In this document: piece after piece, positions 18,910-57,832 of the stretch
Position numbering within the stretch: the first letter of the stretch is position 1
Layout: every line of letters starts with the position of its first letter
NCBI RefSeq assembly: GCF_025147485.1
Contig: NZ_CP102263.1
Location: forward strand, 3,857,501-3,921,500
DNA: 64,000 nt
Origin: Bacteroides uniformis
Lineage (GTDB): Bacteria; Bacteroidota; Bacteroidia; Bacteroidales; Bacteroidaceae
Direction: 5' to 3'
Translations under genes and position numbers: made by a program
Notes under the pieces: model-generated
Told to the model about the DNA's origin: nothing
The model's input: only the letters and a program-made list of their open reading frames with translations
Database searches by the model: none

Positions 18910-19929
18910 ATGAAAAAGAATTTTTATTTCCAACACTCCTTAATGTCAATGTTCGACCCCAGAATGAAACACTTGGTAGACAACGAAGGACTCAGAGGAC
19001 TGGGTGCCTACTGGATTATCATCGAAAAACTGTCAATCTTGCCAGAACCGCGCGCGCAACTGGATTATCTCCGTGCCTACTGCGACAGCAAGAAAATTAC
19101 CTTATGCTACCTTAAGAAAATCATCCTGGAATACGACCTTTTTGAACTGGACGAAGACGGATACTTTATGCCCAAAGAGTTGAATCCCCTACACAAAAAA
19201 GGCGAAAAAACGGAAAAAACTACTCAGGAAAAGCCGGATTCCAAAGCAAAAAATGACGAAAAACAGCAAAAAGTATCGAGGAATAAAAGCAAAAAACAGT
19301 CTGATTTGTCAAGCAATACACTAAACAACAAGCATTTAGCTAAAAACGCCACAAATACTAATAAGAAGACTATAGATATTAATAAAACAACAACAGCAAC
19401 AACAGAAGAAAAAGAAGCTGCTGCTGCCGATGCACTTTCATCACCCCAAACAACACCCGCTCCCATCGAACCCTGGCATACGCTGATAGACAAACTCACC
19501 GAAGAAAGTGCCTGGCTGGACGTGGCCTGCATGCACAGCGGCTATGGCAGCTTGCTGAAGACGCACATCAAAGAGGCTGTGGAGGTATTCAGGCAGCACG
19601 TCATACTGCACGACAACGGCAATGTGCTGCTGAACATGAAAGACACCCGACAATATTTCGTCAACTTTGTAAGGGCCGGCCAGCGCACCTCGCAGGAACT
19701 GCATATGCTGTTGCAGGGCCTCGAAAAGCAGCAGTCCGCCGCTGCACCTCCCGACCCCTACCGCTACGAGCTGCTTGTGGACGGACGGCGCACCTACCTG
19801 GGCTGCCCCATCCCCGACGGAGCGCCACCCCGACCAGACAATACCGCCTTCTGGAACGAAACTGCCCGTTCGTGGACGTCGCAAACCCCGCCGCCTTCAT
19901 CGAAAAAGCCGAAACAGAAACCCGGCTGA
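18910..19929 (+). CDS. DUF4373 (Lin1244/Lin1753-like) replication-initiator-type protein
   Basis: The first 95 residues (FYFQHSLMSMFDPRMKHLV... and GLGAYWIIIEKL) match the DUF4373 N-terminal winged-helix-like domain found in phage and plasmid replication proteins. A Lys/Asn/Thr-rich low-complexity linker runs from about 100 to 190. A C-terminal domain of about 90 residues (EESAWLDVACMHSGYG... to MLLQGLEKQQ) follows. The 339-residue protein ends 1 bp before the 22-bp-phased array, and the next gene is a primase-helicase. A role in DNA binding and replisome loading is inferred from this order. The AT-rich linker contrasts with the GC-rich helicase gene. Confidence 0.75.
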   Translation: MKKNFYFQHSLMSMFDPRMKHLVDNEGLRGLGAYWIIIEKLSILPEPRAQLDYLRAYCDSKKITLCYLKKIILEYDLFELDEDGYFMPKELNPLHKKGEKTEKTTQEKPDSKAKNDEKQQKVSRNKSKKQSDLSSNTLNNKHLAKNATNTNKKTIDINKTTTATTEEKEAAAADALSSPQTTPAPIEPWHTLIDKLTEESAWLDVACMHSGYGSLLKTHIKEAVEVFRQHVILHDNGNVLLNMKDTRQYFVNFVRAGQRTSQELHMLLQGLEKQQSAAAPPDPYRYELLVDGRRTYLGCPIPDGAPPRPDNTAFWNETARSWTSQTPPPSSKKPKQKPG

Positions 19930-19930
19930 A

Positions 19931-20106
19931 ACGCCACACTCCGGCACCCGGAATGCCACACGTCAGCGTTCCGAATGCCACATGTCAACGTTCCGAATGC
20001 CACACCTCAGCACGTCCCAAGTGTGGCATTTACCCCCGTGAAGTGTGGCATTTCAACCCGCTAAGTGTGGCATTTCAACCCGCTAAGTGTGGCATTTCAA
20101 CCCCTC
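19931..20106 (+). repeat. 22-bp-phased palindromic array, eight units
   Basis: Four units beginning with the word ATGCCACAC (or close variants) start at 19931, 19953, 19975 and 19997. Four units beginning with its complement-type word AAGTGTGGCAT start at 20019, 20041, 20063 and 20085. Every step is exactly 22 bp, about two helical turns. The units at 20041 and 20063 are identical over all 22 bp. The two halves face each other, so the array is one large inverted repeat. It fills the gap between the DUF4373 and primase-helicase genes. A second array of the same kind lies at 44586-44706. Confidence 0.95.
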
Positions 20107-20170
20107 AGGCTGCCCTGAAACTAAAATCTGCGTCTAAAAAATTATCAGAAAACTACTAAAGCAAACCTAT

Positions 20171-21985
20171 ATGAGAAATTTCCATCAACACGGCATTGAT
20201 ACCCGCGGCCGCATCAGCGGCAAAATCAAGATCATCTGCCCGCAATGTAACGACACCCGCGGACACAAAGGCAACAAGTCACTCTCCGTAGACCTGGACA
20301 AAGGCTTGTGCTACTGCCACCACTGCGGCTACAAGCTCTACGTGCCCGACGACGCCGAAGAACGCCTCAAGCAGCAACGCCGCGACATGCACCGGAAGCC
20401 CACCGCACCGCCCCAGCACTTCCGCCGTCCCACCTTCAACCCTGCCCGGATGCAACTCTCCGAGAACCTGGAACGCTACTGGACCACCGTCCGCTGCCTG
20501 CCGCAGGAGCTGCTGCGCACCCTGCGCATCACCGAAGAGACGGTGCGCCTCCCGGAGAGCAGCCAGGAGGAGAACTGCATCTGCTTCAACTACTTCGAGA
20601 ACGGGACGCTCGTCAACACCAAGTACCGCAGCGCCCTGAAGCACTTCATGATGGTGAAGGGGGCCGAGCTCATCCCCTACAACGTGGACAGCATCCTCGG
20701 CACCCCGGAGTGCATCATCACCGAAGGCGAGTTCGACGCGGCAGCCGTCATCGCCGCCGGACGCAAGGACGTCGTCTCCGTGCCCGCCGGCGCCCAGAGC
20801 AACCTCACGTGGCTGGACCGCTTCGTGGAGTCGCACTTCGAAGACAAGCAGACCATCTACATCGCCGTAGACGAGGACCCGGCAGGGCAGTCGCTCCGGC
20901 AGGAACTCACGCGCCGCATCGGAGTGGAACGCTGCCGCATCGTGCACTTCGGCGAGGGCTGCAAGGATGCCAACGAGCATCTGGTGAAATACGGCGCCGA
21001 AAGCCTCCGCATCTGCATCGAGCAAGCCGAAGAAGTGCCCCTGGAAGGCATCTTCACCGCCGAAGACTGCCGCGACGACCTGCGCTCCCTCTACGAGAAC
21101 GGCCTGCAGCGGGGTGCCGACACCGGCTGGGACAACTTCGACGAACACTGCACCTTCGAGCCCCGCCGCCTGCTGGTGATGACCGGACGCCCCGGCGACG
21201 GCAAGTCCGAATTCACCGACGAGCTGGTGCTGCGCCTCTGCCTGCGCCACGAGTGGAAAATCGCCTTCTTCAGCCCCGAAAACATGCCCATCGCCTACCA
21301 TCTGCACAAGCTGGCGGAGAAGCTGACCGGCCACCGCTTCACCCCCGGACCGGGCATGACGGAAGCCGTCTACGGGCAGGCAGTGGGCTGGCTGGACCGC
21401 AACGTGTCGCACATCCTGCCCGACGACGGGAGCTACGGCATCGACCACATCCTGGAGAAAGCCCGCCAGGTGGTGCGCCGCAAAGGGGTGCGCATCCTCG
21501 TCATCGACCCCATGAACCGCCTGGAACAACGTCTGGAACCGGGGCAGACGGAAATGGACTACATCACCGACACGCTGAACAAGCTGGGACGCTTCGCCAC
21601 CCGCAACCAGTGCCTCGTCATCCTCGTGGCCCACCCCCGCAAGGTGAACCGCAACGAAAAGGACGGCACCCGGCGCCGTGTCGAGATGAACGACATCAAC
21701 GGCTCTGCCAACTTCGCCAACATGTCCGACTTCTGCCTCGTGGTAGACCGTAACGACACGAAACAGATAGCCACCATCTACATCGAGAAAGTCCGCTTCA
21801 AGCACCTGGGCAGCGCCCACACCGAGGCCAAGTTCGTCTACAACCACCTGAACGGACGCTACTGGCCCTGCGAGGAAGACGTCATCCACCCCCCCCAAGG
21901 AGAGCAACTGGGACCGGTGAACACGCAGTTCGACAATGAGAATTGGTTGAAAAATAATGAAGAACAAGGCAGGTTATTCGAGTAA
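20171..21985 (+). CDS. TOPRIM primase / DnaB-like helicase fusion
   Basis: This 604-residue protein has an N-terminal zinc ribbon (C23-x2-C26 ... C49-x2-C52), a TOPRIM domain (TEGEFDAAAV at about 183 and AVDEDPAG at about 232) and a RecA/DnaB-type helicase domain with Walker A GRPGDGKS near 339 and Walker B ILVIDPMN near 443. This is the gp4/Twinkle layout of phage primase-helicases. It would prime and unwind DNA during replication. It lies directly after the 22-bp array. The gene is markedly GC-rich compared with its neighbours, which produces long false ORFs on both strands. Confidence 0.9.
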   Translation: MRNFHQHGIDTRGRISGKIKIICPQCNDTRGHKGNKSLSVDLDKGLCYCHHCGYKLYVPDDAEERLKQQRRDMHRKPTAPPQHFRRPTFNPARMQLSENLERYWTTVRCLPQELLRTLRITEETVRLPESSQEENCICFNYFENGTLVNTKYRSALKHFMMVKGAELIPYNVDSILGTPECIITEGEFDAAAVIAAGRKDVVSVPAGAQSNLTWLDRFVESHFEDKQTIYIAVDEDPAGQSLRQELTRRIGVERCRIVHFGEGCKDANEHLVKYGAESLRICIEQAEEVPLEGIFTAEDCRDDLRSLYENGLQRGADTGWDNFDEHCTFEPRRLLVMTGRPGDGKSEFTDELVLRLCLRHEWKIAFFSPENMPIAYHLHKLAEKLTGHRFTPGPGMTEAVYGQAVGWLDRNVSHILPDDGSYGIDHILEKARQVVRRKGVRILVIDPMNRLEQRLEPGQTEMDYITDTLNKLGRFATRNQCLVILVAHPRKVNRNEKDGTRRRVEMNDINGSANFANMSDFCLVVDRNDTKQIATIYIEKVRFKHLGSAHTEAKFVYNHLNGRYWPCEEDVIHPPQGEQLGPVNTQFDNENWLKNNEEQGRLFE

Positions 21986-44553: not shown

Positions 44554-44585
44554 TAAAACCGGACACACCGGAAACTAAAAAAGGA

Positions 44586-44706
44586 GTGCCACACTTCGTC
44601 AATCGAAATGCCACACTTCACGAGGCCCAATCAATGGCATTTACCTCTGTGAAATGTGGCATTTTCCTTGCTGAAGTGTGGCATTCGGAATGATGGAATG
44701 CGGCGT
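44586..44706 (+). repeat. 22-bp-phased palindromic array, second copy
   Basis: Units start at 44586 and 44608 (GTGCCACACTTC and ATGCCACACTTC), then in the opposite sense at 44630, 44652, 44674 and 44696 (ATCAATGGCAT, AAATGTGGCAT, AAGTGTGGCAT and GAATGCGGCGT). Every step is 22 bp, the same phase and the same words as at 19931-20106, with two degenerate units. It lies between the convergent TlpA-like and MetE-like genes and could also act as a bidirectional terminator. Confidence 0.92.
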
Positions 44707-44709
44707 TTT

Positions 44710-57580: not shown

Positions 57581-57778
57581 CGTATTATTCTTTGAAAAAT
57601 AGCCTTTTAATCGAAAAAACTGATTAAATATGCATAAACAATCGTTTGCGGAATGTCATAGTTTAGCCACAAAAGCCCCATTGGCTCGCCCATCCATGCA
57701 TTTTTCGTCTAAAATTCCCGAAGTTTCAAAAAAGAATTCCCGGAGTTTTCAGTTGAAGCCCCAGGAATTTAAACAAAA

Positions 57779-57813
57779 AACCCCAGGGATTTCAATTGTA
57801 AATCCCTGGGGTT
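57779..57813 (-). terminator. Terminator of the V-ATPase operon
   Basis: Perfect 14-bp arms at 57779-57792 and 57800-57813 with a 7-nt loop, followed on the minus strand by a TTTTTTGTTT run. Upstream on the plus strand are related half-words (ATTCCCGAAGTTT, ATTCCCGGAGTTT, CCCAGGAATTT), so it also looks like a member of the word-repeat family. Confidence 0.85.
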
Positions 57814-57832
57814 TATTTTCTTATAATCCGGA

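Follow-up and report, generated by a model that had tools for sequence, protein, structure and literature searches.

Plasmid iterons are multiple sites that follow one another every two turns or so of the helix, next to an initiator-like gene, and a CRISPR array is made up of longer repeats with unique spacers, which run in one orientation and are accompanied by cas genes. Other repeats are dispersed: The REP, BIME and REPIN elements (GTAG- and CGTC-tagged REPs) are extragenic, often palindromic and situated mostly between convergent or tandem genes, according to the excerpt of PMC3733652 that is used here. In Porphyromonas gingivalis, the BrickBuilt MITE comprises intergenic 23-nt tandem repeats with conserved and variable positions; it has a leader and a tail with IS5-type terminal inverted repeats and contains 1 to 22.8 direct repeats (PMC4596501, in its excerpted part). 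The HTCS/AraC-type operators of Bacteroides are likewise direct repeats at about two helical turns and are described, in the excerpted part of PMC3878776, as pairs that lie in promoter regions and have a 20–21-bp pitch (16+5, 12+9, 14+6).

We analyzed a window of 64,000 nucleotides, which corresponds to positions 3,857,501–3,921,500 of the 4.63-Mb single-contig genome of Bacteroides uniformis and contains an array of short repeats beside a primase-helicase gene (Table 1). Both the sequence and a core scan reveal eight 9-bp cores, namely four copies of AAYGCCACA followed by four of TGTGGCATT; the minus core at 19930, AACGCCACA, carries one mismatch. This confirms the four plus four units of opposite orientation that an earlier note on this DNA had reported, as well as the two identical neighboring units (starting at 20044 and 20066, identical over 22 bp) and the start of the array directly after the upstream gene, whose TGA codon (19927–19929) is followed by the first core at the very next base. 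The spacing of exactly 22 bp claimed in the same note applies inside each half, but has to be corrected for the middle, where the step from core to core is 26 bp; the rest of that description is accurate. Between the last core and the ATG of the helicase gene lie 74 bases. In the region upstream of the helicase gene the lag-22 self-match amounts to 72, the maximum in 200 shuffles being 11. No Rfam family matched within the window at gathering thresholds, and a DNA similarity of the array to plasmids was not found. An assignment as CRISPR array was rejected on account of the 9–14-bp cores and the inverted halves, and no Cas domain occurred in the seven window proteins scanned. The HTCS/AraC-type operators, as far as the excerpt describes them, differ as well, since here we deal with arrays of up to eight sites at gene ends.

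Table 1. Positions of the array, its neighboring genes and the further 22-bp-pitch arrays within the window.
Feature	Position	Strand	Details
Lin1244_N (weak)/DUF7833 protein gene ("DUF4373 gene"), upstream neighbor	18910..19929	+	
Left half, four outward-facing sites	19930..20009	-	cores 19930, 19952, 19974, 19996; 22-bp pitch
17-bp centre between the two innermost cores	20005..20021		14-bp sites of both halves extend into the centre
Right half, four outward-facing sites	20017..20096	+	cores 20022, 20044, 20066, 20088; 22-bp pitch
TOPRIM/DnaB_C primase-helicase gene, downstream neighbor	20171..21985	+	
Second array, same word	44585..44707		minus cores 44585, 44607; plus cores 44633, 44655, 44677, 44699
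Third 22-bp-pitch array, different word AATTCCCGRAGTTT / AACCCCAGGGATTT	57713..57814		lag-22 score 22

The architecture of the unit was derived from 59 arrays, which remained of 69 unique candidates after eight non-Bacteroides loci and candidates scoring below 11 had been dropped, and some few of which may be one array counted twice. The unit consists of TNARR-TGTGGCATT-Y and some 7 variable bases after it, TNARR-TGTGGCATT being the 14-bp site. In the 211 units of these arrays the core holds 1.6–2.0 bits per base, a value inflated by the selection of units for a core match, vs 0.05–0.68 bits at the eight spacer positions 9–16; the TNARR part, which played no role in the selection, reaches 1.25 bits at T and 1.48 bits at A. 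The centre fits a division into 5+7+5, from which the halves face outward. Arithmetic from the core scan and the unit consensus yields site-centre spacings of 22, 22, 22, 21, 22, 22 and 22 bp; consequently, all sites lie on about one side of the helix. The register of the centre was assumed in the search for the 69 candidates, and in a register-independent pair list the starts of 28 of 28 nearest minus–plus pairs are separated by 48, 70 or 92 bp (hand count). Contiguous units sum to 5–8 in 53 of 54 arrays, with arm lengths that are weakly anti-correlated (r −0.25, n 54). Moreover, close relatives differ by whole units: The two arms hold 4 and 4 units in the window, 5 and 3 at L119, 5 and 2 at L123, and 3 and 3 at L358.

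We then turned to the neighboring genes and to the same locus in relatives. The product of the DUF7833 gene matches Lin1244_N below the cut-off (17.8 of 25 bits), a comparison of solved structures with the DUF4373 alignment gave no credible match (best E 0.11), and the primase-helicase is of the phage type (PHROG 239, E 3e-92). The earlier note had proposed collecting such gene pairs from Bacteroidales genomes. For this comparison, the 500 bp upstream of 30 fetched helicase homologues (L005–L034, with L005 being the window) were examined; further helicase matches without a fetched locus exist beyond these. A 22-bp-phased array is present at this spot, between the two genes, in 24 of the 30 fetched loci including that of the window, if lag 22 is required to rank first, or second to its double 44, and to exceed all 200 shuffles; in 21 loci the lag-22 score is at least 18. 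The 500 bp upstream of the helicase gave no lag-22 signal at L017 or at four homologues below 50% identity, and at L028, also among the 30, the contig holds only 164 bases upstream, such that the scan read inside the gene. The iteron-like phasing beside Lin1244-like (by the above match below cut-off) and phage-type primase-helicase genes is thereby supported. The word itself differs by lineage: TGTGGCATT is found in L005–L011, other words in most of L012–L027. Hence, place and pitch of the locus array are kept while the word turns over. As a separate observation, a Lin1244–helicase–DUF4248–HU–amidase gene set lies among glycosyltransferase genes in a B. ovatus record labelled as a 190-kb plasmid (L360, NZ_CP081918.1), and the corresponding set in the window likewise adjoins glycan genes.

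Arrays of the same word also occur elsewhere. The second array of the window, which lies between two convergent genes that we take to be TlpA-like and methionine-synthase-like, comprises three exact cores, one with one mismatch and two with two. With a relaxed word pair, more arrays were located near 3.51 and 3.62 Mb in the B. uniformis genome, and a degenerate array of the word is found at 1.99 Mb. The exact pair TGTGGCATT-N13-TGTGGCATT is present in 8 of 99 same-genus genomes (reversed control, 1 of 99); with at most one mismatch, the word pair is present in 14 of 158 (reversed control, 5 of 158). Nine of these 14 genomes have 14 to 42 matches each, and the remaining ones (G022, G062, G072, G088 and G503) have one or two, of which that in G072 is probably due to chance. 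Among 76 stretches, the named species with the exact pair include B. cellulosilyticus, B. timonensis, B. stercorirosoris, B. oleiciplenus, B. rodentium and B. heparinolyticus; unrelated organisms contribute single matches here and there. In a phylum-wide draw of 395 genomes, only the B. uniformis genome was matched by a three-unit pattern for which three mismatches were allowed. Pattern matches outside Bacteroides (for example in Treponema, L087, and at Prevotella-like and Parabacteroides loci) are tandem-only arrays or lone pairs, and some of them may be chance matches inside unrelated repeats. As a test for further genome-wide families, three locus words of other species were each searched in 12 genomes: The first turned up at the DUF4373 locus of G012 and G085 and nowhere else, the second only at that of G092, and the third at that of G001 and G059 as well as at two further places in G001. 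Accordingly, a wide dispersal of the locus word has been demonstrated for the TGTGGCATT clade only.

These distributions bear on the possibility that the array is a set of iterons: The origin of a domesticated or satellite element would be served by the DUF4373 protein and the primase-helicase, and copies of its sites would have strayed into the chromosome. The recurrence of the array in the relatives compared and the phage-type helicase are in line with such an origin, as is the crowding of TGTGGCATT arrays around the DUF4373–helicase locus: By a hand count, 5 of 11 arrays in G073 are packed into about 102 kb (4788, 4810, 4845 (the locus), 4875 and 4890 kb; 25 of 32 matches listed), and 4 of 10 or 11 in G057 into about 71 kb (4400, 4430 (the locus), 4457 and 4471 kb; 25 of 33 matches listed). 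TGTGGCATT arrays crowd too at 120–183 kb of contig C145 in G508, where we presume a DUF4373–helicase locus. Plasmid 68 of B. finegoldii (L357, NZ_OY725970.1) is ambiguous. This 3850-bp record, deposited as "complete" and circular, does carry both a 22-bp array (lag score 47) and the helicase, together with the end of the DUF4373 gene, DUF4248, a nucleotidyltransferase and an antitoxin. However, it retains no more than the final 75 codons or so of the DUF4373 gene and has no end-to-start overlap; judging from its number, the record may have arisen as a by-product of assembly. Faecal samples yielded a 4310-bp clone whose helicase is 97% identical; this clone is linear and without terminal overlap. 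Against an origin, the TGTGGCATT word is found in G022 and G062, which have two or three word cores at the second locus and lack a close helicase homologue, their sole helicase match being DnaB-like (E about 1e-5, 22% identity), and other words of the same pitch sit at unrelated loci. In contrast to plasmid iterons, whose sites are confined to the origin or control locus of the replicon, the Bacteroides arrays share the helical-pitch sites beside an initiator-like gene, but are found at many chromosomal loci, with inverted halves and many words. Of the origin reading put forward in the earlier note, the phasing and the replication-type neighbors stand and are backed by the recurrence at the locus, whereas a private origin is not supported, because the same word recurs at many unrelated loci. 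We consider an iteron origin with strayed copies improbable; the array looks like one of many dispersed intergenic 22-bp arrays and more like a protein docking platform than a private origin.

For this class as a whole, we sampled 1.864 Mb from 12 Bacteroidales genomes (random stretches of four, then of eight more), excluding stretches picked for known arrays or for the DUF4373 locus. The sample contains 50 tandem segments at lag 22, 29 at 44, 13 at 21, 11 at 42 and 8 at 23, compared with a mean of 1.05 segments at 22 other control lags between 15 and 40; neighboring segments of one array may count twice, both here and in the array-pair counts. At least one lag-22 segment was found in each of the 12 genomes, with many words that are mostly not TGTGGCATT, and none was found in 200 kb of E. 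coli or in 100 kb of a class-level relative. In three genomes with usable gene calls (G085 was excluded from the gene-context counts because of a run of N), 49 of 51 lag-22 segments are mostly intergenic, with intergenic bases making up about 14.5% of the sequence and the set of 51 including stretches chosen for known arrays. Different genomes have words in common: A match of at least 17 is reached by 45 of 1378 array pairs vs 0 of 300 shuffled pairs. A dyad-symmetric word was detected at p 0.05 or better in 22 of 50 arrays, and 33 of the 50 sampled arrays are self-inverse. Among the genes flanking 23 segments, no family was found in more than 2 of 39 proteins within the best 25 of 93 matched families (the longest of the 40 proteins was excluded from the scan).

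These arrays were also compared with two of the described elements. They resemble REP, BIME and REPIN elements, as characterized in the excerpt, in being extragenic, dispersed, often palindromic and for the most part located between convergent or tandem genes; they differ in the invariant 22-bp pitch, in the many words per genome and in the 17 of 50 arrays that are not clearly self-inverse. A tagged REP/BIME palindrome of 20–40 bp was rejected for the present word, as the TNARR-TGTGGCATT consensus is without GTAG or CGTC. With BrickBuilt, going by its excerpted description, they share the intergenic location, a nearly equal unit length, conserved and variable positions and the taxonomic order. 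Membership in BrickBuilt was rejected on the same excerpt, since the arrays have a 22-bp pitch and head-to-head halves rather than 23-nt direct repeats. Among the matches listed in open-access full-text searches, none was found to describe a class of gene-end arrays that combines a single exact pitch with many words; a search of open-access full text for the bare core word gave, among the matches listed, none that concerns Bacteroides repeats by its title. The BrickBuilt precedent in P. gingivalis (PMC4596501, in its excerpted part), the dispersed copies and the differences in unit number among relatives would also suit minisatellites or miniature mobile elements that are largely neutral, have no host function and owe their spread to some transposase or to template switching. 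This is very improbable in our view: The pitch is 22 for many unrelated words, arrays are found at orthologous positions in several species, and the variable spacer parts of different arrays are just 35% identical with a near-invariant core, which argues that the dispersed copies are not fresh.

Several further periodic elements were observed in the same material. CTCCGTA-N4 arrays with an 11-bp pitch, that is, one helical turn, are found at L226:19665–19824 (G073) and L284:4798–4936 (G040), the second half of the former being inverted by eye. At L209:345–516 and L220:7778–7953 (G085), ATATAGATNCA and TATTAACACCTGA seem, again by eye, to be successive in one 22-bp register. A weaker second periodicity in multiples of 7 bp (lags 14, 21, 28, 35 and 42) is present in the samples of G000, G073 and G085 and is intergenic in G000 and G073. 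Lastly, G000 contains eight equal weak DnaA-family matches in 264-aa frames (at 1974602, 3427256, 3576567 and five more places), which are probably copies of an insertion-sequence ATPase, presumably IstB.

The main rival explanation operates at the level of RNA: In analogy to REP/BIME, the arrays would be transcribed palindromes at gene 3' ends whose hairpins protect mRNA or stop transcription bidirectionally. Consistent with this, the RNA of the window array folds with −79.9 kcal/mol (z −8.7) and that of the second array with z −6.3, and z falls below −3 on one or both strands in 34 of 50 sampled arrays. According to a crude ORF call, 17 of 59 TGTGGCATT arrays end at most 10 bp from a gene 3' end, and among 27 arrays in tandem gene pairs 18 lie closer to the 3' end of the upstream gene and 8 closer to the start of the downstream gene, with 1 tie. 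Against an RNA element, 10 of 16 folded DUF4373-locus arrays have z above −2 on both strands (2 range from −2 to −3 on one strand or both, and 4 are below −3); thus, the common denominator is the pitch and not the hairpin. Spacers of the same rank on opposite arms are hardly more alike than those of other ranks (identity 0.41 vs 0.38), and core deviations affect 104 positions on one arm only vs 7 on both arms. Canonical terminators are neither replaced nor excluded by the arrays in the three genome samples (Fisher p 1.0 for both convergent and tandem pairs), and the enrichment in convergent gaps is only mild (10 of 42 arrays vs 52 of 365 gaps of at least 90 bp; 44 merged arrays entered this gene-pair count, 2 of them at an edge). 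The ordinary folds at the DUF4373 locus, weak spacer pairing and the 104-to-7 ratio of one-arm changes together favor a role at the level of DNA, and we regard the RNA explanation as rather unlikely. With regard to terminators, two candidates were rejected: A replacement of terminators had been suggested by second-locus orthologues without a long array, which seemed by eye to bear hairpins, and the gap scan showed no exclusion; an intrinsic terminator was sought within 19700–20400, where a scan permitting loops of 3–8 only, shorter than the centre of the window array, gave one match at 19907–19927, outside the array (shuffle mean 1.3). There is no T run after the right half of the window array.

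The words of arrays at two loci of one genome were also compared. At the second locus, the lag-22 score is at least 13 in 10 of 28 orthologues including that of the window, all with at least 62% protein identity. In G056 the arrays at both loci carry a word like GAGSTGCGTSRTT, in G088 both carry one like AAGTGYGGGMTT, and in G031 RAGCCCGCA is found at both, with a weaker match. When the four two-locus genomes are cross-scored in a simple way, the A/B pair of the same genome takes the top rank in all 4 rows and in 3 of the 4 columns, the exception being array B of G088, which scores 34 with array A of G000 and 25 with its own array A. Judging from these sequence comparisons, when a genome has two such loci, their words tend to change jointly. 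Loci A and B are only about 15–25 kb apart in these genomes, so that local gene conversion could mimic a concerted change.

We propose, with a probability of roughly one half, that the arrays are one-face binding platforms for word-specific proteins. The short sites (14 bp in the present case) at a pitch of about two DNA turns would all face one side of the helix, and each word would be read by its own putative sequence-specific DNA-binding protein, which might polymerize along that face. At gene ends, such a platform would act as a boundary or roadblock between neighboring genes or as a chromosome-organizing anchor, and words and binders would co-evolve. Pitch, geometry, dispersal, the placement between genes, conserved cores beside variable spacers, differences by whole units among close relatives and the tendency of the words at two loci to change jointly are seen in the sequences themselves; the binding of proteins, the identity of the binders and the function of the arrays we infer from the DNA. 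Several observations count against a platform: As the flanking genes share no family, each word would need an unlinked regulator; the stable RNA folds and the self-inverse arrays also fit a role of the RNA; opposite-arm spacers are at least 7/8 identical in 12% of 91 same-rank comparisons vs 5% of 162 at other ranks, and 5 of the 7 core positions altered on both arms show the same change. B-DNA has 10.5 bp per turn, so that two turns predict 21 rather than 22 bp. Nor does a platform account for the fact that TGTGGCATT arrays crowd near the DUF4373 locus.

A more far-reaching version, which we put forward tentatively as a possibility, is a genome-wide code of the Bacteroidales: Many words at the invariant 22-bp pitch would be read by matching polymerizing DNA-binding proteins that mark gene boundaries or organize the chromosome, with words and readers diverging per lineage. 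If 10–50 segments per Mb are extrapolated, each genome would have between some tens and a few hundred of these platforms in its intergenic regions. Bacteroides is among the best-studied gut bacteria. If the arrays are platforms, they would imply a still unknown set of DNA-binding proteins whose specificity evolves fast, as well as a new means by which neighboring genes are kept apart or the chromosome is folded, and would provide a ready test bed for the co-evolution of binding sites and binders.
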